Assembly: GCA_021777355.1 (NCBI GenBank)
Contig: JAJYDO010000004.1
Location: 1-63,026 of the forward strand
Reading direction: 5' to 3'
From: Actinomycetes bacterium
GTDB taxonomy: Bacteria; Actinomycetota; Acidimicrobiia; Acidimicrobiales; JABEUL01
Length of the DNA: 63,026 nt
Under the pieces are notes generated by a model. That model was not told where the DNA came from. It saw only the letters and a list, made by a program, of their open reading frames with translations, and searched no databases. How positions within the stretch are numbered: position 1 is the stretch's first letter; the number at the start of each line of letters is the position of its first letter. Both the position numbers and the translations under genes were made by a program. Below, one piece after another: positions 1 to 12,464 of the stretch.

Positions 1-87
1 AAGGCATTACCACTACGACCACATGACTGGCATGGCGAGTGGAACTACAATATTGGACAAGTGGGGCGACGGAACGTGCCCAAGTAG
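1..87 (+). CDS. possible C-terminal tail of a transposase (partial)
   Basis: An open frame enters from the left edge and encodes 28 residues before a TAG at 85-87. It contains the string HDWHGEWNYNI. From memory this resembles the end of ISAzo13/Rhodopirellula-type DDE transposases, which often finish with a W/F-HGEWNY-I motif. Nothing upstream is visible, so the call rests on this short motif. The frame overlaps the first 49 bases of the methyltransferase gene. That would fit an insertion sequence whose end lies at or inside the 5' part of that gene. Confidence 0.35.
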   Translation, partial: KALPLRPHDWHGEWNYNIGQVGRRNVPK

Positions 88-3000
88 TTCATTCTCGGAG
101 CCTAAGTCTTGTAGGGAAAGACTTAGTCAGCGGTCTAGGTTTTGGAATATCTACAATTTCAGGTCGCTCCAATGTGCTCACTATTGATGGAAGTACTAAA
201 CGTGCTGTAGCGGTATTTCTATACGATGGTGAGACCTTTGAGGATTCACTTGAAAGTTTTAATGGGACCACTGCGGTTTCCCATGCACTTGCAGTTGCCG
301 ACAAAGAAAACCTTCCGTGGGTGGTGCTAACTCGTGGGAGAGAGATCCGACTTTATGCGGCAAAACCTGATGTTGGAGTTGGAAGAAAAGGCCGCTCTGA
401 GACATTTGTCGAGGTCAATTTATCATTACTACCAGATGACAAGGCCGGTTATTTAACCCTCTTATTTGGTGCAAATGCACTCCGTTCCGGGGGGACATTA
501 GAAGAGGTTTTGGAAAGATCAGAGGACTTTTCAGCATCATTAGCCATCAGACTTCGACAGCGAGTTTACTTTGATACAGTTCCGGCTCTAGCGACAGCGA
601 TTGCAAAACGCCTAGATAATACAACGACTTTAAGTGAAAAGGATCTCCAGGCTGCCTACGAGCAAACTTTGGTCATATTATTTAGACTTCTCTTCGTAGC
701 CTACGGTGAAGATCGTGACTTACTCCCATACAGGTCGAACTCCAAATACGCTGATCATTCTCTGAAACGAATTGCGAGACATCTAAGTGATGATCTTCGT
801 AATGACGCAATAAATTTTGACCCAGAGGCATCAGATCTTTGGGAGGATGTGGTCCAACTTTGGGGAGCAGTTGACAAAGGAAACACATCCTGGGGGCTAC
901 CAGCCTACAACGGCGGTTTGTTTTCCGGTGAAGCCGATGTTAATCACTCTGGTGCAGCACTGGCGGGAATAAGGCTACAAGACTCCGAATTTGGGCCTGC
1001 TTTATTAAGTCTTCTAGTCGATGAAGGCCCAGATGGAGTAGTTGGACCTGTAGATTTTAGAAGTCTTTCAGTTAGAGAGTTCGGGACAATATATGAAGGA
1101 CTCCTAGAATCCATGCTATCTGTAGCTCAAAGTGACCTTACAGTGGACAAAAAAGGTGACTATGTTCCTGCTCGCGAAAAGGACACCGTAGAGTATCCAG
1201 CTGGAACTATCTACTTCCACAACCGTTCAGGAGCGAGGAAATCTTCAGGATCTTATTTCACAAAGCCATTCGCAGTTGAACACCTTCTCGACCAAGCATT
1301 AGAGCCAGCGCTTGACAAACATCTTGAGCGCATTTCAGCATTGCTAGATGATGGAGACGATGCAAAAGCAGCTGATTTGTTCTTCGATTTTCGATGCGTT
1401 GATCTGTCGTGTGGATCTGGTCACTTTTTAGTCGCAACTGTTGATCGAATTGAAGCCAGATTTGCCAACTTCTTAAGTATGCACCCGATTCCAGCAGTGA
1501 CTAAAGAGTTAGTTCTCTTAAAAAATGCTGCAAGAGAACATCTTGGAGACTTGGCAGACAGCGTCGAGATTGAAACCACAAGTTTGTTGAGAAGACAGGT
1601 AGCAAGACGCTGTGTTTATGGCGTAGATGCCAATCACATTTCAGTCGAATTGGCTCGATTGGCGATTTGGATTCATACATTTGTCCCTGGACTCCCACTT
1701 TCGTTTTTAGACCATTCCTTGAGGCATGGGGACTCACTAACAGGGATAGGAACACCTGAGGAAGCATTAGATGTTGTTGATCCAAAAGCTAAAAGAAGCA
1801 TTGACGGCTCGCTTTACCGCACTGGTCTCGAAGAGTTCCTTGGCAGAGCCTCTAATTCCCTACGTCGACTAGCGACTATTTCAGAGAGTAGCTCGCAAGA
1901 AATTAAGGAGGCACGAAAAGCTCACCTGGAAGCGCAAGAAGCAGTGAAACCAGCTCGTCAACTCTTTGATTTGATCGTTGCTGCAAGAGTAAATGGACGA
2001 AATAATCTAATAGAGATTTCTGAAGAAAGACTGGCAAATAATATATATCTTTCAGATGCTGAAAAGACCGTGGCAAAGCTCACATCGCTCCATTTCCCTA
2101 TTGCTTTCCCAGAGGTGTTTATTCGCGAAAATCCTGGTTTTGATTGCATATTAGGTAATCCACCCTGGGAAAAGGCGAAAGTAGAGGAGTTAGGATTTTT
2201 CTCTCTCCGATATCCGGGTCTCCGGAGTTTAAATCAGGCGCGTCAACGGGACAGGATAGGCTATTTACGTACTAGCCGGCCCGATCTTGTCATGGAGTAT
2301 GAGGCGGAGGTAAAAATAGCACAATCTGTCAGAAAGCTCCTTCTTGCAGGACCTTACCCAGGGATGGGGCAAGGGGATCCCGATCTGTATAAAGCATTTG
2401 CCTGGCGCTTTTGGAGCTTGATTAGGGAGGGAGGCCATATAGGAGTAGTTCTTCCACGCTCAGCCCTAACTGCCAAAGGGAGTGCTCCCTGGCGCCTGGA
2501 GATTCTCGATCACGGTTGTTTCAAAGATGTCACCATGATCCTTAACAATGCCCAGTGGTTCTTTGAAGATGTGCACCCGCAATATACCATCGGTCTTGTG
2601 ACTATAACTAAAGGTGATGAATTTGTAGGAGATATTGGAATTAGGGGACCCTATAATTCTCTACCTGCATATGAATCAGGCATGAAGATTTCGACGACAG
2701 AATTTAAAGCAAGTGATTTTAAGTCCTGGTCTGAAGGAGCTTCATTCCCACTAATTCCAAGTGACGCTGCCTCTAGAGTGTTTAGAAAGTTGCGTTCACA
2801 CCCACGCCTTGGCAATGGTGGCGATTGGAGTTGCAGACCATATGCTGAATTTCACCCGACTCATGATAAACACCTGTTTGAACTAGATCCAACCGATACA
2901 GCAGGACTCTGGCCTGTATACAAGGGTGCTTCTTTTGATATTTGGGAACCAGATCGGGGATTGTCGCACTATTATGCTTTCGCTGATCCCAAAAAGGTAC

Positions 3001-3638
3001 TGCCCGTTCTTCAGGCGAAGAGGAAAAACAGTGCCAGAGGAAGAAGCGGAGTCTTTTCGGGATTCTCAGCCAGTTTCATAAATGACCCCAATACGTTGCC
3101 GTGCCTGTCACCTCGCATAGCCTTTCGAGATATTACTCGTTCGACGGATACGCGAACTTTGAGAGCTTGCCTAATACGACCCGAGGTTGTGATCACAGGT
3201 AAAGCACCGTACCTATTATGGCCGAAAGGTGATGAGCGAGATCAAGCCTATTTGCTTGGTGTTCTTTGTTCAATGCCGCTCGACTGGTACGGACGATGTG
3301 TTGTGGAGATTGACGTGACCTATTACCTTTTTAATGCTCTCCCTATCCCTCGACCCAGCCGAGACGATCCCATTAAGCGACGAATTGAAATTATTGCAGG
3401 CCGTCTGGCTACCCCAACTGAGGAATTCAGTAATTGGGCAAAAGCCGTAGGAGTTGAAGTTGGATCCGTCACCGATGATGAAAAGCCGGAACTCGAAGCT
3501 GAACTCGAAGCTTTAGTTTCTCGTCTTTATGGCCTAAACGAATCTGACATTAAGGTCATATATGACACGTTTCACGTTGGTGCTGATTATTCAGATAGGT
3601 GTAAATCTGTGCTTAAGTACTTCAGGCTAAATAAGTGA
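39..3638 (+). CDS. Eco57I-like N6-adenine DNA methyltransferase of a restriction/defence system
   Basis: This 1199-residue protein probably methylates adenine in DNA, marking self DNA for the helicase-nuclease encoded next to it. The SAM-binding motif I (DLSCGSGHFL) lies near residue 455 and the catalytic motif IV (NPPW) near residue 707, the order and spacing of large Eco57I/type IIG-like methylases. The long N-terminal part shows no nuclease motif I recognise. The C-terminal half probably holds target recognition. The GTG start at 39 is the first usable start after an in-frame stop at 24-26, so the protein may be N-terminally shortened by an upstream insertion. Its stop overlaps the helicase start (GTGA), implying translational coupling. 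DrmMI of DISARM systems is a similar large methylase, but no drmA or drmB is visible here. Confidence 0.8.
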   Translation: MELQYWTSGATERAQVVHSRSLSLVGKDLVSGLGFGISTISGRSNVLTIDGSTKRAVAVFLYDGETFEDSLESFNGTTAVSHALAVADKENLPWVVLTRGREIRLYAAKPDVGVGRKGRSETFVEVNLSLLPDDKAGYLTLLFGANALRSGGTLEEVLERSEDFSASLAIRLRQRVYFDTVPALATAIAKRLDNTTTLSEKDLQAAYEQTLVILFRLLFVAYGEDRDLLPYRSNSKYADHSLKRIARHLSDDLRNDAINFDPEASDLWEDVVQLWGAVDKGNTSWGLPAYNGGLFSGEADVNHSGAALAGIRLQDSEFGPALLSLLVDEGPDGVVGPVDFRSLSVREFGTIYEGLLESMLSVAQSDLTVDKKGDYVPAREKDTVEYPAGTIYFHNRSGARKSSGSYFTKPFAVEHLLDQALEPALDKHLERISALLDDGDDAKAADLFFDFRCVDLSCGSGHFLVATVDRIEARFANFLSMHPIPAVTKELVLLKNAAREHLGDLADSVEIETTSLLRRQVARRCVYGVDANHISVELARLAIWIHTFVPGLPLSFLDHSLRHGDSLTGIGTPEEALDVVDPKAKRSIDGSLYRTGLEEFLGRASNSLRRLATISESSSQEIKEARKAHLEAQEAVKPARQLFDLIVAARVNGRNNLIEISEERLANNIYLSDAEKTVAKLTSLHFPIAFPEVFIRENPGFDCILGNPPWEKAKVEELGFFSLRYPGLRSLNQARQRDRIGYLRTSRPDLVMEYEAEVKIAQSVRKLLLAGPYPGMGQGDPDLYKAFAWRFWSLIREGGHIGVVLPRSALTAKGSAPWRLEILDHGCFKDVTMILNNAQWFFEDVHPQYTIGLVTITKGDEFVGDIGIRGPYNSLPAYESGMKISTTEFKASDFKSWSEGASFPLIPSDAASRVFRKLRSHPRLGNGGDWSCRPYAEFHPTHDKHLFELDPTDTAGLWPVYKGASFDIWEPDRGLSHYYAFADPKKVLPVLQAKRKNSARGRSGVFSGFSASFINDPNTLPCLSPRIAFRDITRSTDTRTLRACLIRPEVVITGKAPYLLWPKGDERDQAYLLGVLCSMPLDWYGRCVVEIDVTYYLFNALPIPRPSRDDPIKRRIEIIAGRLATPTEEFSNWAKAVGVEVGSVTDDEKPELEAELEALVSRLYGLNESDIKVIYDTFHVGADYSDRCKSVLKYFRLNK

Positions 3639-6600
3639 CACTTGACCCAAAGCCTGATTTTGCTACTAATCGACCTGGAGAGAGGGTCGCTGATGCAATT
3701 GTTGGCTTTCTAGAGGGGCTGCAAGAAAAACTTAGCGTAGCACCACAAGTATTAATTGCTTCAGCGTATTTTAATCCCGCTGGATTTGAATTACTCGCAG
3801 ACTCTTTGGAGAAATGTGGGTCAGTGAAGCTTCTTTTAGGAGCTGAACCCCTAAGGCGTGATAATCATATTCGAAGTCTAAAATCTTCTATTGGTCCAGC
3901 TAGAGCGAGTAGTGAAAGACTTAAAAGTGCACTATCAGACCATACTGCAACTATGGCAGTCGATCGTGACTTACTCGGCTTTACCTTTGAAGCCGATGCT
4001 TCTGCGAGACGACTAGTTAAGTGGTTGGAGTCAGGAAAAGTTGAGGTTCGAAGGCTTGAGAGCTCTTTCTTGCATGGTAAAGCATTCATTGTCACAACTT
4101 ATGACGAGGGGATAATAGCTGGATCATCTAACTTTACCTACGCAGGACTCGCTACAAATGTTGAGTTAAATCTTGGCAATTACGAAGCGCATGTGGTTAG
4201 AAAAGCTGGAGACTGGTTTGACGAACTCTGGGATGAGTCAGTTGAATTTGCTCTAAGTGCAATATATAAAGCCCGCTATGTGGAACACTCGCCATATTTG
4301 ATATTCCTTCGAATGCTTTTTGAGCGCTACGGTGCTGAACTAGAGGAAGAAAGGAATGGAACTGGTGTATCGAAGATCCAGCTCACTACTTTCCAGCGTG
4401 ATGGCCTGTGGAGAGCTAAGAGAATATTAGGAGACTACCATGGCGTAGTTATAGCTGACGAGGTTGGACTTGGAAAGACATATTTGGCGGGAGAGCTAAT
4501 TCGAAAGGCTGTCGAAGAGGACCGGCAAAGGGTACTTCTCATTGCCCCAGCTACTCTTAGGGACGGACCATGGGCCAAGTTCTTTTCAAATCAGCAACTT
4601 GGAGTTGAGAAGATCTCTTTTGAAGAACTTGCAGATGACGTAAATCTTAACCCTGATGCAAGAGGGAGCTATCTCAAGAATAAGCCAAAAGAGTATTCAA
4701 TGATTGTCATTGATGAAGCTCATGCCTTAAGGAACCCTTCAACTCTGAGAGCTAATGCGCTAAGACAGCTTTTATCTGGCTCACCACCTAAAAAAGTAGT
4801 CTTGTTAACTGCAACTCCTGTGAACAATAGTCTTTGGGACCTTTACTGGTTGCTCACTTACTTTATTCGAAACGATGCAGTATTTGCTGACGCTGGAATA
4901 AAGTCCATTAAAGATCACTTTGCAGCTGCTATGGCCATGAATCCTGATGATCTTTCACCTGAGCACCTCTTTGATATATTAGATGCTGTTGCAGTACGGA
5001 GAACTAGAGAGTTTGTAAAAACTCACTATAGGAATGACACAGTTGTAATAGATGGAAACCCAGTACCAATTGTCTTTCCAACTCCAAGAGTCCGCAAAGT
5101 CACTTACGATCTCGATGATGTTCTACCTGGATTCTTTGATCGATTTGCCCATGCATTAGATGGCACTGCAGTAGGTCCTGGGGATCCAACAGTACTTTCA
5201 CTTGCCAGATATTCACCTAGCCAATACCGGTTGGATAATAATTTAGAACCCCATGAAATTCAACTCGCCGGACTTTTGAGATCAGGATTGTTAAAGCGAT
5301 TTGAATCATCAGCTCATAAATTTGCCAGAACTTGTAGGAAAATGGCGGCTAATCACGATGCTTTTCTAACACTTTTGGAACAAGGCAAAGTTGGAAAAGG
5401 TGAAGTACTTGCTGACTGGATTGCAACTGATGCAGACGATGAAGAGGAGATGAACGAGTTTTTGTCTGCTCACGCCCTTGCCTTAGACTCGGCCAGTGAA
5501 TACGATGCCGAGCTACTCTCAGCAAATGCCGCATCGGACCGAGATCTTCTTTTAAGTTTTGCTGGGGTTGCAGAAAGTGTAGAGCCCGCCACAGATCCAA
5601 AGCTTTCCCAGCTAATTGAGGAATTAGCAGAGATTGCACAAGAGGCTAAATCAGAAGGTATCGGAGAGGTAGATGCCCGAGATAAACGCAAAGTACTAGT
5701 ATTTTCCTACTTTGCTGACACGGTGGAGTGGATTGCTAATTTTGTTTTGGAGAAGGTAAATGCAGATCCTCGGTTGGCCGACTTTAAAGGAAGAGTCACA
5801 AGTATCTCAGGTACTGGTGGATCTAAACATGAAGTTCTTTGGGGATTTGCTCCACGGACCACTGAAGCACCACCTGGGGCTGATGAGGATAAATACGACA
5901 TTGTTGTCACAACTGATGTATTAGCTGAAGGCGTGAACTTGCAACAAGCACGCCATATTATTAATTACGACCTTCCATGGAACCCAATGCGCCTGGTACA
6001 GCGTCATGGTCGAATTGACCGAATCGGCTCCAATCATAAGGAAGTATTCCTACGGTGCGTATTTCCAGATGCTCAACTAGATGACCTTCTAGGCTTAGAG
6101 GAACGCCTTCACCGAAAAATTGCTCAAGCTGCTGCTGCAGTTGGAGTGGCAGAAATTCTTCCTGGAAGTCGAGCTAATGAAATAAATCTTGCAGATTCCA
6201 GAGAAGAGATTGAAAGACTGAGACACGAGGACGCATCTTTATTTGAAAAAGGCGGAAGTGGCCGTTCATCGCTATCAGGCGAAGAGTATCGGCAGGAGTT
6301 AAAAACAGCTCTACAACATAGCGATCTGGCAGAAAGTATTCGCCACCTCCCGTGGGGGTCAGGATCCGGAATGGCCATTAGTAACTATGGGGGGGAGCCA
6401 GGGTTTGTCTTCTGTACACGAATTGCAGATCATCCAAGGCCAGTTTTCCGGTTTATCCCTTCATCAAATCTAAGTCAGCCTCCAGTTAGGGATACCCTTA
6501 CCTGCATTGACATGGCTCGACCACGAGATGGATTTGACACGCCAAGAGTATTAGATGACAACACGGCTGAAGGAGCTTACGTGGCCTGGACTCGTGCGGT

Positions 6601-6949
6601 AGATGACATAGTGGAGAAATGGAATGAAGCAGCTGATCCTGCAAATCTTGCCCCATCTATACCACTTGCAATGCATCGAGCCGCTAAATTAGTGCTTGAC
6701 CACCGACCTAATGAAATGACAATTGAGGCCTCCGAGAAACTAATAGATGCTCTTCAGGCTCCTTACCCGGAGCGAATTGTCCGGTTAGTTCGATCGTTAC
6801 TTTCGACGGATGCTGTTCCTGAAGAAATTGTGAGACTAATTGACAAAACGGTCACTGAACTTGGACTCGAACCAAGCCCTCCTCCAACTCCGCTTCCAGA
6901 GATCACATCAGTCGATGTAAATCTTATTTGTTGGACAGCACTCGTTTAA
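3635..6949 (+). CDS. PLD-nuclease/SNF2-family helicase fusion
   Basis: This 1104-residue protein joins a phospholipase D-like domain to a SNF2/DEAD-type helicase. The PLD motif (HGKAF followed by GSSNFT) is near residues 147-165, and only one HxK copy is obvious, so an active site would need dimerisation. The helicase follows: Walker A DEVGLGKT near 275, the Walker B box DEAH near 358, the TATP motif, and a C-terminal helicase lobe ending in HGRIDRIG near 795. The start GTG overlaps the methylase stop by four bases. Family knowledge suggests a DNA translocase that cuts or blocks unmethylated DNA. Class 1 DISARM uses a SNF2 helicase (DrmD) and a separate PLD protein (DrmC); here both functions sit in one chain. 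The exact system type is not certain. Confidence 0.82.
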   Translation: MTLDPKPDFATNRPGERVADAIVGFLEGLQEKLSVAPQVLIASAYFNPAGFELLADSLEKCGSVKLLLGAEPLRRDNHIRSLKSSIGPARASSERLKSALSDHTATMAVDRDLLGFTFEADASARRLVKWLESGKVEVRRLESSFLHGKAFIVTTYDEGIIAGSSNFTYAGLATNVELNLGNYEAHVVRKAGDWFDELWDESVEFALSAIYKARYVEHSPYLIFLRMLFERYGAELEEERNGTGVSKIQLTTFQRDGLWRAKRILGDYHGVVIADEVGLGKTYLAGELIRKAVEEDRQRVLLIAPATLRDGPWAKFFSNQQLGVEKISFEELADDVNLNPDARGSYLKNKPKEYSMIVIDEAHALRNPSTLRANALRQLLSGSPPKKVVLLTATPVNNSLWDLYWLLTYFIRNDAVFADAGIKSIKDHFAAAMAMNPDDLSPEHLFDILDAVAVRRTREFVKTHYRNDTVVIDGNPVPIVFPTPRVRKVTYDLDDVLPGFFDRFAHALDGTAVGPGDPTVLSLARYSPSQYRLDNNLEPHEIQLAGLLRSGLLKRFESSAHKFARTCRKMAANHDAFLTLLEQGKVGKGEVLADWIATDADDEEEMNEFLSAHALALDSASEYDAELLSANAASDRDLLLSFAGVAESVEPATDPKLSQLIEELAEIAQEAKSEGIGEVDARDKRKVLVFSYFADTVEWIANFVLEKVNADPRLADFKGRVTSISGTGGSKHEVLWGFAPRTTEAPPGADEDKYDIVVTTDVLAEGVNLQQARHIINYDLPWNPMRLVQRHGRIDRIGSNHKEVFLRCVFPDAQLDDLLGLEERLHRKIAQAAAAVGVAEILPGSRANEINLADSREEIERLRHEDASLFEKGGSGRSSLSGEEYRQELKTALQHSDLAESIRHLPWGSGSGMAISNYGGEPGFVFCTRIADHPRPVFRFIPSSNLSQPPVRDTLTCIDMARPRDGFDTPRVLDDNTAEGAYVAWTRAVDDIVEKWNEAADPANLAPSIPLAMHRAAKLVLDHRPNEMTIEASEKLIDALQAPYPERIVRLVRSLLSTDAVPEEIVRLIDKTVTELGLEPSPPPTPLPEITSVDVNLICWTALV

Positions 6950-7251: not shown

Positions 7252-8637
7252 TCAGAGCGTGAGCGCTCGGCTAAAAGCAAAAGTCGAGTTTAGATCCCAT
7301 GGAATTACACTGGCTTGAACGTTATCTGCGCACTGAAGGTCGACGCTCACGACAGAAAAGTTAGGGCCATCATGTAGGATGCGAAGCAGGTCTGAAATAA
7401 CTAGTGAGCCAGCAAATGCACCTACAAATGCCGCTCCAACATTTACCCCAGCAATTTCAAGCATCCCACAACGGACAGCATCTTCCTTGCCTCCTTCTCT
7501 AATCAGATTGTCAATCTCATTTTCGTAAGCATTCGACAAGACCGGGGAGGCCAGACTTCTTTCTGGGAAAGCTTCCGCTGGGCCTTGAATCGCAGGAAAG
7601 GTGTGAGTGGTGATACCTAAGTAGTTGGAATATCCTGATCCGAGTCCTCCGTCAACCACTCGCAAGAATCCTCCATTACCCAGGTCTAGACGAGGACTTC
7701 GCTTGTCGAATCCCGAAAGGGCAACTGTCGGTTCATTACGCGTCCTGTCCAAGCGGAATGTGCTGTCGAATGCTCTCTCCACGATCGTTGTTTCGAAGCG
7801 TAGGCTCTCGAGAGCCGACGCCACTACGCGTGTCTTCCGACGATCAATCACGTTATCTGATCCATTAACGAGTAGCTGGGTTGCAATGTTGCCTTTTACA
7901 ACTTTGTCGAAGTCGATAAGTCCAACGTGCGTTTCTTTAGGGTTTTCATATGGCAACATGCCAAGAACCCATGAATACGCTTGCCCAAGATGACCAAGAC
8001 CTAGTAGCCAAATCTTGCTGGGAAGAAACTCTAAAGCAGGGCCAACTGCATTCTCATCGCGCCAGTTGCAAAGAGGATTCCAAAGTGAAATACCGATATC
8101 ACGCCGACTAGCAACTGGCTCACCTAGGGCGTTCTGAAATACTTCCGAGATTCCGAGTGCTCCAGCTGCAACACCAGCTGGCACAATACCGCTATTTTTC
8201 AAGACATGATCAAATTTTTGAACCACACCGCCTGACCAGCCTGAATACGTTATATGAAGGACCGGCTTACCGATGGGATCTTCTGGTCGAGCGACTGCAA
8301 GGGTTGGTTTGTTGGGATTAAGACTTTTGACAACCGTCCCTCCGAAAAGGTTAACCGCATCGGCAACGTTGAGCCCAAATCCCCAAGGAACGCGTAATTG
8401 GACATTCTTGCTAATCGCAACGTTTATTCCACCTAAAAATGCCCTGTGGCCTGCATTTACTATAGTGAGTAGGGCTGCTTGGGCCGCAGTGTCATCACCG
8501 ATGTCGTCACCAACGCTGACTTGGAGGACAAGGGTTTCCAAGAAATTAATAGCCTCGCGAGGACTGTTACAAGCCTTTGAGTCAACTAACAACTTTGCGG
8601 TGCGGTTTATAGTGTCCGGGTTTTCGTTCCAGCTCAT
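7252..8637 (-). CDS. ThiF/E1-like ubiquitin-activating family enzyme
   Basis: A 461-residue E1-like protein, expected to adenylate the C-terminal glycine of the ubiquitin-like partner and to form a thioester with it. The nucleotide-binding motif GLGHLG is near residue 213. The acidic strand LIDFDKVVKGN with a following TQ, near 240, matches the D-x-D...N...Q pattern of ThiF/E1 adenylation domains. A cysteine in RCGML near residue 390 is a candidate thioester residue; the other cysteines sit in less likely contexts. The N-terminal ~200 residues are not a domain I recognise. I chose the ATG at 8637, not a start 51 bases upstream. It has a GGAGGAGG ribosome site six bases before it and overlaps the peptidase stop as ATGA. 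It is the last gene of the four-gene operon. Confidence 0.82.
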   Translation of the reverse strand: MSWNENPDTINRTAKLLVDSKACNSPREAINFLETLVLQVSVGDDIGDDTAAQAALLTIVNAGHRAFLGGINVAISKNVQLRVPWGFGLNVADAVNLFGGTVVKSLNPNKPTLAVARPEDPIGKPVLHITYSGWSGGVVQKFDHVLKNSGIVPAGVAAGALGISEVFQNALGEPVASRRDIGISLWNPLCNWRDENAVGPALEFLPSKIWLLGLGHLGQAYSWVLGMLPYENPKETHVGLIDFDKVVKGNIATQLLVNGSDNVIDRRKTRVVASALESLRFETTIVERAFDSTFRLDRTRNEPTVALSGFDKRSPRLDLGNGGFLRVVDGGLGSGYSNYLGITTHTFPAIQGPAEAFPERSLASPVLSNAYENEIDNLIREGGKEDAVRCGMLEIAGVNVGAAFVGAFAGSLVISDLLRILHDGPNFSVVSVDLQCADNVQASVIPWDLNSTFAFSRALTL

Positions 8638-9125
8638 GGGAACCTCCTCCTTAAAGAAATTCGCTTTTTGGCCTCTCGTCCTGTCCATGAAGTCCAGTTT
8701 CCGCCATCGTAGCGGTGGATGCCCACCTCATATCGAGCGATTGAGTGGCACCCAAGATCTGGCAGAATCAGGGCAATGTGGCCTTTTTGTGCAATCATTG
8801 GATTTGCAGCATCGATAATGCTTTGACGTACCTGGGTGCCAGGATGAGTGTGCACGTCGCCAACGACTTTGCATTTTTCATTTTTGCAAACATCCCAAAG
8901 TTTGCTATAGGCTCGACCGTCAAAATGAATTCCACCTTTCAAACATTTAGGGTCGAGATCATCAAAATATACAACTCTACTTATAAGCCTAGGATCGCCA
9001 TCAATGTTGGCAAGAAGAAAGGCACCTGATTCCTTTATGCAATGACCGCGCGCACCTAGCTCGGCAATCATTGCATCCCAATCAGACAACCTCATCCGAA
9101 TAAGTGATCTTCTTGCTTTAAACAC
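8634..9125 (-). CDS. JAMM/JAB (MPN) metallopeptidase, deubiquitinase-like
   Basis: A 163-residue single-domain zinc peptidase. The JAMM signature is complete: Glu32 in KESG, then H92-x-H94-P followed by S102 and D105 (HTHP...SIID). Members of this family cleave ubiquitin-like proteins from partners or trim their C-termini. Its position between the E2-like and E1-like genes fits removal of the operon's own modifier. The GTG start at 9125 overlaps the E2-like stop by eight bases. An ATG ten codons later is an alternative, and neither has a clear ribosome site. No extra domain or signal peptide is seen, so it should act in the cytoplasm. Confidence 0.88.
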   Translation of the reverse strand: MFKARRSLIRMRLSDWDAMIAELGARGHCIKESGAFLLANIDGDPRLISRVVYFDDLDPKCLKGGIHFDGRAYSKLWDVCKNEKCKVVGDVHTHPGTQVRQSIIDAANPMIAQKGHIALILPDLGCHSIARYEVGIHRYDGGNWTSWTGREAKKRISLRRRFP

Positions 9126-9600
9126 CTATATACTCATCAGAATTCAAAAGTCCATGTAAGTTTTCAAGAATGAAAGTGAGATCTCGGCTGCTATTCCACG
9201 CAAAATGTGGGGCTTCTTGCTGCCAGTTAGGGTGGGCTTGAAGACCCAACCGATCCCATGGAGCGTACATGGCGTTGTCGCCAGCAACCCAACGATCAGC
9301 CCGAAAGACCAGGGCGAGTTTATCGCCCTTTGGTCGTTTATTTTGTGGTAGTGACGTGCCTGCCTCAGCATCCCAAATCCCTCCGGTAGGAGCCACATTC
9401 GGATAACCACTTAACTCGAAACGAACGACAAATTCAGTTGGGGCGCTTCCACGCGGCGCTGCTGAGATTGCGACTAAGGCAAATGGCCATTCTAAAGATA
9501 AAAGACGCCACATACCTGATTCCACACCCGACCGAAAGCCACCTCCAGCAAGGTGACCACGGAGTGTGCGTTCATCGGGAGCCATAGTTATGGCTGTCAT
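9118..9600 (-). CDS. E2-like (UBC-fold) protein without any cysteine
   Basis: A 160-residue protein placed where the E2 conjugating enzyme sits in bacterial ubiquitin-like operons. The middle shows an E2-style strand ending in SGYPNVAPT, similar to the F-x-x-x-YP...P pattern of UBC folds. It is followed by an APWDR...HPNW segment and a C-terminal helix (FILENLHGLLN). The oddity is that the whole chain has no cysteine, so it cannot form the usual thioester. It could be a non-catalytic UEV-like adaptor or could use another residue. It starts with an ATGA overlap on the ubiquitin-like gene's stop. The fold assignment is my inference from motifs and context and needs a profile or structure comparison. 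Confidence 0.65.
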   Translation of the reverse strand: MTAITMAPDERTLRGHLAGGGFRSGVESGMWRLLSLEWPFALVAISAAPRGSAPTEFVVRFELSGYPNVAPTGGIWDAEAGTSLPQNKRPKGDKLALVFRADRWVAGDNAMYAPWDRLGLQAHPNWQQEAPHFAWNSSRDLTFILENLHGLLNSDEYIGV

Positions 9601-10064
9601 CCGGCGAAGCGATCCAGGGGCACGAGATCCAGGCAGACGCTGCAGGTATCTTGATCAATTAGCGATCCGACGTGGATATCACTAGAAAGGAAATAATCAC
9701 TTCCAGGTACGACAAGCCCGTGCTTAGCAATTTGTTCGGTTGATAAGTTGGCTGCGTTCGGTCCCGAAGCCCAGTGATAAACCGTTTTTATTTTAGTTCC
9801 AGGGCCAAATTCGTGTATGAATTCGTCAGAGTTGTAACGAACTTTAACTTCAACATGGTGGCATCGACCTATGTGGATATGGTTATGGTCTCGAATCCCC
9901 GCTTCTTCGATGGTGAGGTCGAGGTCGAGGTCATCGTCAACTTCCTCAATCCAAACCTTTTCGTCCGGATCAGAATCAATTACAAGCTCTCTGACTCTGG
10001 ATGTTGCTTCGACTTCTCTAATAACCGGTTTTTCACTTGAGTAATTGTGTAAAAATAGTTCCAT
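9597..10064 (-). CDS. tandem beta-grasp ubiquitin-like protein (multiubiquitin type)
   Basis: A 155-residue protein that looks like two beta-grasp units in tandem. The first covers about residues 1-68 and ends in the strand HIHIG. The second runs from about 70 to 155, opening with the strand VEVKVRYN and closing with CLDLVPLDRFAG. This resembles the multiubiquitin domain family described by Iyer, Burroughs and Aravind next to E1, E2 and JAB genes. The chain ends in a glycine at the natural stop codon, so a conjugatable C-terminus may need no trimming. It is the first gene of the operon, starts about 50 bases below the shared operator, and overlaps the E2-like gene by four bases. It is the likely modifier. 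Confidence 0.75.
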   Translation of the reverse strand: MELFLHNYSSEKPVIREVEATSRVRELVIDSDPDEKVWIEEVDDDLDLDLTIEEAGIRDHNHIHIGRCHHVEVKVRYNSDEFIHEFGPGTKIKTVYHWASGPNAANLSTEQIAKHGLVVPGSDYFLSSDIHVGSLIDQDTCSVCLDLVPLDRFAG

Positions 10065-10110
10065 GAATCCATCTTTCTATTGTGGTATCCCCCTGACAGC
10101 ATCGGGGAGC

Positions 10111-10166
10111 GGGTATACTTTACCTCTGAGGTATATGATATCATATTTACCTTAGAGGTATATCAT
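10111..10166. promoter_or_regulatory. divergent promoter region with twin palindromic operators
   Basis: The gap between the ubiquitin-like operon and the HigB-like gene has two copies of TTTACCT-n3-AGGTATAT, starting at 10119 and 10146, exactly 27 bases apart. Each core is itself an inverted repeat (ACCTCTGAGGT and ACCTTAGAGGT). Between them is the 14-base palindrome ATATGATATCATAT at 10133-10146. The layout fits cooperative binding of two dimers of a helix-turn-helix repressor controlling both directions. The XRE-ImmA protein encoded at 10479 is the obvious candidate regulator. Confidence 0.7.
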
Positions 10167-10179
10167 TTGGCAAAAAACT

Positions 10180-10482
10180 ATGAAAATAACTTTCTACAGA
10201 GCGGCGCTCGCGTCGTTGTGTAACTCGGAACAGCGCTTGGTTGAACTTTGGGGAAAAGATGATGGGCATATGGTTGGGCGCAGATTGCTAGAGCTTCGTG
10301 CAGTAGATACGGGTAGCATCGAAAATCTCCCGAAAGTGGTTATAAAGAAGGGTAACGGGGGCGATACAACTATAGACTTCGGAGGGAAGATAATAGTCCG
10401 TGGACTAATCACGAGCGCCAACTTGGTGGAAGAAAGTATCTTGATCACTAGTATTGAGGTCAAAGGGAGTGTTCGTAAGTGA
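10180..10482 (+). CDS. HigB/RelE-like toxin component
   Basis: A 100-residue basic protein starting MKITFYRAALASLCNSEQRL. The pattern of an N-terminal strand, a charged helix pair with LCNSE, and an RRLLELRAVDT segment matches HigB/RelE plasmid-maintenance killers, which are mRNA interferases acting at the ribosome. The C-terminal strands (IIVRGLIT, ILITSIEV) fit the fold. The ATG has no clear ribosome site and lies just below the operator, so the transcript may be nearly leaderless. The stop overlaps the next gene by four bases (GTGA), typical of toxin-antitoxin pairs. It could instead be a degenerate toxin kept as a co-regulator. Confidence 0.65.
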   Translation: MKITFYRAALASLCNSEQRLVELWGKDDGHMVGRRLLELRAVDTGSIENLPKVVIKKGNGGDTTIDFGGKIIVRGLITSANLVEESILITSIEVKGSVRK

Positions 10483-11549
10483 CAAGAAGCAAACAATATC
10501 CGTATCGCCCGGACTACATGATTCCTCCTGGCGAGACATTGCGGGACAAAATCACCGGGATGAACTTATCTCAGGCTGAATTGGCGGTACGGGCAGGGAT
10601 CTCCGCCAAACATGTGAATCAAATTGTGCATGGAGTGGCACCTATCACTTTGGAGACGGCTATAGCGCTTGACCGGATTACCGGTATTCCCGCCAGTGTT
10701 TGGAACCACCTCGAGGCAAACTACCGCGAGACACTACTTCGTTATACGGCAAGTACTCTTTCAGTGGATGACCAAGCCTGGATGGATTCATTACCAATCA
10801 ACGAGTTAAAGCGACGTAAAATCCTTCCAGATGAGAAAGATCGAGTGAAGTTATTCGACGCTTTATTGTCATTTTTTGGGGTTGCCGACCGTGTAGCTTG
10901 GGATCGTATATGGAAAGGACAAGTAGCATCTTTTCGAAGGTCCAGCGCGTACCGAAGCGCTCCGGAGTCGGTAATATCATGGCTGCGAATAGCACAAATT
11001 TCAGCACAAGCAGTTAACACTGAGATGTTTTCTACCACCAAGTTTCGGAAAGTGCTCAGTGAGATCCGCTCTCTCACTTCGAACGGTGACCCCAATGATA
11101 TCGTTCCATTGTGTGCTGAGGCAGGAGTGGTAGTCGTCTTTGTTTCCGAAGTTAAGGGATGTCACATCAGCGGAGCCGCATGGTGGGCGAGTAAGAACAG
11201 AGCTATTATTTCTCTAAGTGATCGATACAAAAGGGATGATCAATTCTGGTTCTCTTTCTTCCACGAAGCGGCTCATTTACTTATGCACTCAAAGAAGGAA
11301 ACTTTCGTAGATGATGGTAAAGACAACAACATAGTCGAAGAGGAAGCCGACACATTTGCAGCGAACTTTCTAATACCACGAAATTATGAGGAGCTTTTGG
11401 TCACCCTAAAGACGGAAAGTGATGTTAGAGCTTTTGCTTCGGAAATTGGCATAGCTCCCGGAATAGTTGTGGGGCGGCTACAGCATGACCGAAAGTTGGA
11501 TTGGAGTCAAGGAAATAATCTTAAGCGCGGGTTGCGCATCATCGACTGA
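10479..11549 (+). CDS. XRE-family HTH protein with ImmA/IrrE metallopeptidase domain
   Basis: A 356-residue two-domain protein. The N-terminal ~100 residues form an XRE/HigA-like helix-turn-helix (LSQAELAVRAGISAKHVNQI, residues about 30-50). The C-terminal half has the ImmA/IrrE zinc peptidase signature HEAAH at 262-266, followed by EEEADTFAANFLIPR. In ImmA-type systems such peptidases cut a repressor to release a silenced element. Here repressor and peptidase are in one chain, which suggests self-cleavage or relief by a signal. It overlaps the HigB-like gene by four bases and probably binds the twin operator at 10111-10166, silencing both its own operon and the ubiquitin-like operon. Confidence 0.8.
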   Translation: MTRSKQYPYRPDYMIPPGETLRDKITGMNLSQAELAVRAGISAKHVNQIVHGVAPITLETAIALDRITGIPASVWNHLEANYRETLLRYTASTLSVDDQAWMDSLPINELKRRKILPDEKDRVKLFDALLSFFGVADRVAWDRIWKGQVASFRRSSAYRSAPESVISWLRIAQISAQAVNTEMFSTTKFRKVLSEIRSLTSNGDPNDIVPLCAEAGVVVVFVSEVKGCHISGAAWWASKNRAIISLSDRYKRDDQFWFSFFHEAAHLLMHSKKETFVDDGKDNNIVEEEADTFAANFLIPRNYEELLVTLKTESDVRAFASEIGIAPGIVVGRLQHDRKLDWSQGNNLKRGLRIID

Positions 11550-12167
11550 TGATTTAATATCTTGGGTATAGCGATTCTATTAAGCGGCCCGTCCGTCCTC
11601 GAGGTTGCGTTGTACTAACAATCTTCTACTTGAAAATTATCGCTTGACGTCAAAATGAATCATTATCACAACCTTAACAATCTACGTGCAGTCGCGTGCT
11701 GTTGATTAATGAAGCTTTTGAGAAACATAGTTGCAGCCATACAAAACACGGATTATTAGACATTGTTGAAAATCGTGCGATTGATAGCCTAGGCAATATC
11801 TAGCTCTCTTGAATGATAAATACCGCTCCAATAACTGATTGTTCAAAGTTACTTTTGCAGCGATTACGTGTCACAAATACCGGATGATTGCAGTAACATA
11901 CTGTCACGCAAGTTACTTAAATTGCCAGTTGACTTGTGTAAGTGTTCTAACTAATAACTTGTAACCAATACCTTGCTTGTCATAAAAGTGCCACCACTAG
12001 CTTTCCCAAGCTGAGTCCTCGGGTTTGATTTTCGCTGCCCATTCCAAAAAGAAAGTCGAGAGCTTATTAGCTACCTAACGGATTATCCTCGACCAAGAAC
12101 CTATGGCTTAATTATCTCTCTGGCGCCACAAACTACAGGAAATCTTGGAAAATGACGATAAACGCAG
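11550..12167. other. non-coding stretch at the island's right edge
   Basis: About 620 bases with no convincing reading frame on either strand, between the XRE-ImmA gene and the tRNA-like remnant. No integrase remnant is recognisable. The AT-rich, frame-poor sequence is consistent with decayed mobile DNA. Confidence 0.5.
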
Positions 12168-12195
12168 GCTGCTGGTTCAAATCCAGATGACCCCA
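12168..12195 (+). other. tRNA 3'-end remnant, candidate att site
   Basis: The bases contain GCTGGTTCAAATCCAG followed by ATGACCCCA, the look of a tRNA T-arm, acceptor strand and discriminator base. No matching 5' half lies upstream, so this is not a complete tRNA. A detached tRNA 3' end on the far side of an island is what site-specific integration into a tRNA leaves behind. The intact tRNA would then lie left of this window. It differs from the local tRNA-Ile at several positions, so it is probably from another tRNA. Confidence 0.45.
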
Positions 12196-12243
12196 CTAAT
12201 CCTAGAAAAGGCGACTCAATTCAGTCCTTGGATTGGTCTATTT

Positions 12244-12387: not shown

Positions 12388-12464
12388 TGGTGGGGCTAGC
12401 TGGACTTGAACCAGCGACCTCAGCATTATCAGTGCTGCGCTCTAACCAGCTGAGCTATAGCCCC
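12388..12464 (-). tRNA. tRNA-Ile (GAT)
   Basis: On the minus strand the sequence begins GGGGCTATAGCTCAG, has the anticodon loop CTGATAA (anticodon GAT), the T-arm GGTTCAAGTCC and the acceptor end AGCCCC with discriminator A and an encoded CCA. All four arms pair normally. A tRNA-Ile downstream of gyrA in the same direction is the usual arrangement in many actinobacteria. Confidence 0.97.

Follow-up and report, generated by a model that had tools for sequence, protein, structure and literature searches.

A fused HigA-ImmA protein and a degenerate HigB-like partner as candidate divergent controllers of a BilABCD ubiquitin-like operon

Little has been settled about what turns on the ubiquitin-like defence operons of bacteria. 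We explored this question at a locus from an Actinomycetes bacterium of the order Acidimicrobiales (contig JAJYDO010000004.1, assembly GCA_021777355.1), analysed as a stretch of 63,026 nt, hereafter the window. Here a BilABCD operon and a pair of genes for a HigB-like protein and an XRE-ImmA protein (together, the module) diverge from one short shared gap. We put the probability at roughly 60% that a HigB/HigA-ImmA toxin-antitoxin module has been recruited as a divergent transcriptional controller of the BilABCD defence operon, acting by the full mechanism set out below. The features are as follows; G548 and G555 denote orthologous cassettes in two other families of the order.

7252..8688, minus strand: BilD, E1-like (PDLC03847, E 1.7e-134; C407 invariant)
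8634..9125, minus strand: BilC, JAB/JAMM deubiquitinase-like (PDLC03846, E 2.5e-54; motif HTHPGTQVRQSIID kept)
9118..9600, minus strand: BilB, E2-like, no cysteine (PDLC03845, E 1.1e-53)
9597..10064, minus strand: BilA, ubiquitin-like (PDLC03844, E 2.7e-39)
10119..10135, no strand assigned: predicted operator 1 (TTTACCTCTGAGGTATA), ACC-N5-GGT class; this second-site position is partly kept in G555 (11/14) and not in G548
10130..10135, minus strand: candidate bil -10 element TATACC, with a counterpart in place in the three gaps, spotted by eye
10133..10146, no strand assigned: 14-bp palindrome between the operators
10146..10162, no strand assigned: predicted operator 2 (TTTACCTTAGAGGTATA), HigB-side, family motif, centre 26 nt from the HigB ATG; both orthologous Bil cassettes keep it, 26 and 29 nt away
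10180..10482, plus strand: HigB-like protein of 100 aa with a RelE-type fold, lacking the conserved residues of the C-terminal RNase region
10479..11549, plus strand: XRE-ImmA protein, 356 aa, HigA-type HTH and IrrE/ImmA metallopeptidase
10557..10697, plus strand: HTH_3 domain, residues 27-73 (Pfam PF01381, E 8.9e-8)
11262..11276, plus strand: HEAAH zinc motif, read from the sequence

The ubiquitin-like operon is a BilABCD operon, with the ubiquitin-like, E2-like, JAB and E1-like genes all recognised by PADLOC in the order A-B-C-D, and the C-terminal Gly of BilA is invariant. The window BilB contains zero cysteines and carries a Trp at the aligned PCDR Cys position. A Cys occupies this PCDR/ACDR position in Rhizobium, Xanthomonas, Roseovarius, Cupriavidus and G720 (a further Bil-carrying genome of the order), while the replacing residue is Trp in the window, G548 and G555, Ala in Amnibacterium and Tyr in Paraburkholderia caffeinilytica. 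The Trp- and Ala-bearing BilB genes lie at L220 1294-1767 and L221 4194-4676 (G548/G555), at L045 5605-6075 (Amnibacterium) and in the window at 9118-9600. The PCDR-position Cys is presumably the catalytic residue; if so, this clade may conjugate without a classical E2 thioester, or its E2 may serve as a scaffold. The operon sits beside a defence island (window 39-6949), in which a type IIG-like restriction-methyltransferase (PADLOC E 3.6e-268) is followed by a PLD/SNF2 helicase related to the C3a139 and DrmD profiles. Near a minus-strand tRNA-Ile gene, the plus strand carries GGCTGCTGGTTCAAATCCAGATGACCCCACTA, which looks like the 3' end of a tRNA (window 12163-12198 and 12388-12464) and is possibly an attachment-site remnant bounding an island inserted next to gyrA.

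The gap between the two operons spans 115 nt (10065-10179), from the BilA start (10064, minus) to the HigB-like start (10180, plus). The sequence-only reading had described twin repeats 27 bases apart in this gap with a 14-base palindrome between them, and we found exactly this arrangement: TTTACCTnnnAGGTATAT is present at 10119 and again at 10146, and the palindrome ATATGATATCATAT lies at 10133-10146. The gap reads TTTACCTCTGAGGTATAT at 10119 and TTTACCTTAGAGGTATAT at 10146; the direct repeats 10119-10139 and 10146-10166 are 86% identical, and the 2.78 Mb genome has no exact copies of TTTACCTnnnAGGTATAT other than these two. Allowing up to two mismatches, the repeat pattern matched the window four times (two sites, each on both strands) against 0.29 expected, a count reached by 0 of 100 shuffles. 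Genome-wide, matches at two mismatches were no commoner than for a reversed control, so there was no sign of a wider regulon, and a genome-wide regulon of the operator was rejected. The palindrome is not visible in the gaps of G548 and G555 and is therefore probably not essential. On the minus strand, TATACC, TATACT or TACACT follows the HigB-side operator in all three Bil cassettes (seen by eye) and could be the bil -10 element; a generic promoter scan recognised no promoter.

The core of the repeats, ACC-N5-GGT, was traced across 39 HigB/XRE-ImmA modules from at least eight phyla, scanned from 300 nt upstream of HigB to 60 nt inside it. The motif ACC-N5-GGT was found upstream of HigB in 23 of these modules, with ~2.5 expected from shuffles, while other spacers (1 to 11) gave 0-5 each. 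Among 72 viral or prophage loci collected apart from these, some of them on near-identical contigs, 43 carried it, with other spacers at 0-9. Since the motif occurs both with and without a ubiquitin-like neighbour, ACC-N5-GGT is predicted to be the module's own operator. The best-conserved site in the three orthologous Bil cassettes is the operator on the HigB side, at distances of 26, 26 and 29 nt to the HigB ATG and 90, 87 and 99 nt to BilA; it scores 14/14, 12/14 and 14/14 (shuffled 99th percentile 10-11). The second operator, 27 bp further, scores 14/14 in the window and 11/14 in G555, and is not above background in G548. The repeats had been read as shared twin operators. They do match the family-wide operator of HigB/XRE-ImmA modules, but stand-alone modules can carry a doublet too, which by itself is therefore no proof of joint control. 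Six viral or prophage loci (L180, L191, L193, L202, L211 and L212) carry a pair of near-perfect operators ahead of HigB, spaced by 56-57 bp, and no ubiquitin-like neighbour was detected at these loci. Twin operators were accordingly rejected as a mark of ubiquitin linkage.

The divergent pairing with a ubiquitin-like operon recurs in independent lineages and operon types. In all 15 linked loci, four Bil and eleven multiubiquitin/E1, the module faces the ubiquitin-like operon divergently; an IS-broken remnant in Mycolicibacterium rufum was left out of the count. If each locus took its orientation at random, with a chance of 1/2 to 1/4 of being divergent, finding 14 of 14 divergent already has p between 1e-4 and 4e-9, shared descent ignored. 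The XRE-ImmA tree calls for six or more gains or losses of the ubiquitin-like link. The four Bil-linked loci are the window, two other families of its order and one Amnibacterium plasmid. Plasmid loci with the divergent module were also found in Pseudarthrobacter, Clavibacter, Micrococcus luteus and Rhodococcus (four distinct loci), and further ones in Streptomyces coelicoflavus, Sagittula and Mycobacteroides abscessus; in G706 the module diverges from a multiubiquitin/E2/E1 operon.

Closer to the window, BilB was clearly found in 4 of 367 genomes of the order; it was the more specific profile, as BilD on whole genomes mostly gave distant E1/ThiF proteins. Both G548 and G555 have BilABCD divergent from the HigB-like and XRE-ImmA genes, as in the window, and the G555 XRE-ImmA is 66% identical to the window's (that of G548 is cut by a contig end). 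The window's flanking genes were not found beside these two cassettes, and the whole cassette appears to have been co-transferred between families with different flanks. Within the order, the conservation of the pairing mostly favoured the sequence-only reading: three of the four Bil operons found have the module and at least one operator, and G720 instead has a CapH/CapP-like pair. Of the five Proteobacterial Bil operons examined, four had no such neighbour. The G720 pair follows BilD immediately, in the same orientation (L219 5094-7570), and is a different arrangement for a putative HTH/ImmA controller of Bil; the E2 of G720 keeps its Cys. In the fifth Proteobacterial operon, from Paraburkholderia caffeinilytica, an HTH gene and a separate ImmA gene lie upstream. 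Three Proteobacterial Bil operons (L058 1-4478, L059 1-4434, L061 1-4489) are preceded by a conserved trio, consisting of an HTH/sigma-like gene, a ~210-aa gene with no Pfam match and a UvrD-type helicase, which may be part of, or control, those systems. No BilD match turned up when viral contigs were scanned.

The HigB-like protein matched nothing in Pfam, NCBIfam or PADLOC. Its identity rests on an HMM built from the canonical HigBs of related modules, which finds it at E 1.9e-6, on the position of the gene, and on an AlphaFold model (pLDDT 78, 8-row alignment) resembling YoeB, ParE and HigB (best probability 1.00; TM 0.57/0.62 to the HigB 9chl; all E-values >0.01). HigB integrity was scored over 17 key columns in the C-terminal half, defined from 18 modules without a ubiquitin-like neighbour; these reference HigBs score 12-17, which is partly by construction. 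The window protein scores 7/17, with the His, Arg and Tyr-His positions changed. Among the first twelve ubiquitin-linked HigBs, ten score 3-9, while those of M. luteus and R. aetherivorans score 13; by inspection, the HigBs of G548 and G555 are decayed and that of G706 is intact. Conserved C-terminal, active-site-bearing residues are thus lost in 12 of 15 linked loci, against 8 of 41 unlinked ones (Fisher p 6e-5, shared descent ignored), and seven of these eight fall in one XRE-ImmA clade, in which the Arthrobacter and Rhizobiales members have an aGPT-Pplase3/amino acid:DNA transferase gene as neighbour. A tree test of decay against linkage was not significant and had little power, and because just 2-3 independent pairs stand on well-supported branches, an association beyond shared ancestry is not proven.

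Decayed HigBs are 42-52% identical among the three families, close to the 49-58% of BilA and BilB, which argues that the decayed gene is maintained rather than a pseudogene; dN/dS was uninformative, with synonymous sites saturated between the window and its relatives. The HigB-like partner is probably not a working RNase. Decayed HigB partners also occur in an XRE-ImmA clade (L046 6983-10005; L004-L008 around 7600-10000; L056 4125-8298) whose modules are convergent with the aGPT-Pplase3/amino acid:DNA transferase gene in Arthrobacter and Rhizobiales and/or with a thymidylate-synthase-like gene in Arthrobacter and Leptospira. These neighbours suggest that DNA-hypermodification cassettes also use the XRE-ImmA switch.

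The sequence-only reading had placed an HTH and an HEAAH motif in one XRE-ImmA chain, and the domain searches bear this out, with HTH_3 joined by a Peptidase_M78/IrrE domain (residues 219-305, Pfam E 9.2e-12). Across the family, the HExxH motif is kept in 39/39 related proteins, including those with a decayed HigB. The HTH is HigA-type: the protein hits TIGR02607 at E 8.9e-12 (44.7 bits, slightly below the cut-off of 47.7), and a family profile matches PDB HigA structures. A Foldseek search with the AlphaFold model returned CapP first (7t5t, E 1.8e-4) and then HigA structures, several of them DNA-bound, and the capP profile of PADLOC also matches (E 1.1e-9).

The best PADLOC match, however, is PD-Lambda-2_B (PDLC03982, E 7.2e-34, residues 18-339), as it is for all nine linked relatives tested, which favours a different explanation. 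The module could be a self-standing PD-lambda-2-type toxin-antitoxin or abortive-infection system that stabilises or complements Bil, with operators for autoregulation only and an XRE-ImmA that is perhaps itself toxic and held by the HigB-like protein. PD-lambda-2B is toxic alone and rescued by A (PMC9519451), and a 2016 study of Synechocystis, which found DUF955 'TA' loci next to 70% of multiubiquitin genes, suggested stabilisation of the cassettes (PMC4963859). We nevertheless consider this explanation unlikely. The third component C, which PD-lambda-2 requires for defence (PMC9519451), was not seen, with no ORF of at least 60 aa between 11550 and 12144, and the strict divergence, the operators in the shared gap and the lost toxin residues fit regulation better.

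Under the controller reading, the HigA (XRE) domain would bind the 17-bp ACC-N5-GGT operators in the shared gap. XRE-ImmA would thereby repress its own promoter, as conservation strongly implies, and from the same operators it may repress the bil promoter too. The HigB-like partner, keeping a RelE-type fold without the RNase residues, would probably no longer act as a toxin but as a subunit for corepression or sensing. A stress signal, perhaps the infection or DNA damage suggested by the sequence-only reading, would activate the ImmA domain, by analogy with single-stranded DNA for CapP and IrrE. The domain may then cut the repressor, either in cis or in trans, which would release both promoters. 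Evidence from the loci themselves that speaks for this reading comprises the family operator in the gap with its strict N5 spacer and conserved position, the conserved cassette, the always divergent orientation of the linked loci, the repeated gains of the link, the kept peptidase motif, and the lost toxin residues in a HigB that is still conserved; the modelled likeness of XRE-ImmA to CapP and DNA-bound HigA points the same way, and CapH+CapP, CapW and CapK+CapS beside Bub operons are precedents (PMC13373217). On the other side, the operators of stand-alone modules mean that regulation may concern the module only, the second operator is not conserved in G548, no promoter was recognised, and most of the Proteobacterial Bil operons examined have no module. 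More tentatively, and with rather less confidence than in the mechanism itself, a dead RelE/HigB might serve as sensor or corepressor of a one-chain protease-repressor; dead toxin, HigA-ImmA and ACC-N5-GGT operator would then together form a mobile controller that has been added time and again to defence operons, the ubiquitin-like ones among them.

Repression of both promoters could also be relieved with no proteolysis, if the repressor were pulled off DNA by the HigB-like protein or by a phage product that this protein binds, and the peptidase had another role, such as structure or substrate processing. A precedent is GraTA, whose HigB-type toxin is itself a derepressor that blocks operator binding (PMC6393540), and a cleavage site in XRE-ImmA is not known; the HExxH motif, kept even beside decayed HigBs, weighs against this route, which we regard as quite improbable. 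That the two are independent defence genes in one island with no functional link is very improbable. In its favour, a type IIG enzyme and a PLD-helicase upstream make the locus a defence island, and 0 of 13 usable-context hits in a phylum-wide draw had a ubiquitin-like neighbour. Against it, the pairing recurs at 15 loci, all divergent, the link was gained independently several times, and the cassette moved as a whole between families in which its flanks differ.

If the controller reading is right, this locus class offers a concrete, reporter-testable answer for one Bil clade, and would link toxin-antitoxin modules to immune-operon control. Toxin decay could be traced in it as a module shifts from addiction to regulation, and the ACC-N5-GGT operator rule could guide the search for other targets of these switches. 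In the searchable literature, which leaves key Bub/Bil papers outside its reach and so makes an earlier description possible, we found no description of a fused HigA-ImmA with a HigB-like partner as a Bil/Bub controller, or of its operator.

That HTH/ImmA genes stand beside bacterial ubiquitin-like operons is already known. RelE and Xre-COG2856 fusions were predicted as three-part systems by Makarova et al. in 2009 (PMC2701414), and a 2026 paper reported that 219 of 544 Bub operons adjoin CapW or CapH+CapP, with CapK+CapS also found (PMC13373217). Single-stranded DNA activates the CapP protease (PMC13373217; PMC10904395), and IrrE/PprI with DdrO is a precedent (PMC10904395). As in CapH+CapP, an immune operon in the window, here a divergent BilABCD, adjoins an XRE repressor and an ImmA/IrrE-type peptidase, the latter with both sequence and structural matches to CapP. 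CapH and CapP are separate HTH and peptidase proteins, whereas the window has one fused 356-aa chain with a HigA-type HTH, and adds a HigB-like partner, a divergent gene order and its own operator class.

PD-lambda-2 shares the A-B gene order (HigB-like A, XRE-peptidase B) and full-length similarity of B, while the window has no C gene, a decayed A and a position against a Bil operon. With type II HigBA it shares the toxin-first order, the HigA HTH, the HigB fold and operators in the promoter region, and differs in the lost HigB catalytic-region residues, the ImmA domain fused to HigA and the divergent defence operon. The Synechocystis DUF955/HTH 'TA' loci beside multiubiquitin (Slr6056-Slr6057) likewise place HTH and ImmA genes divergent from a ubiquitin-like operon; these are separate genes with no HigB-like partner, facing another type of operon. 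Finally, the window has all four genes of the BilABCD (bacterial ISG15-like) operons in the order A-B-C-D, and is set apart from them by an E2 without cysteine, with Trp at that position also in its two closest relatives, and by the divergent HigB/XRE-ImmA putative controller.
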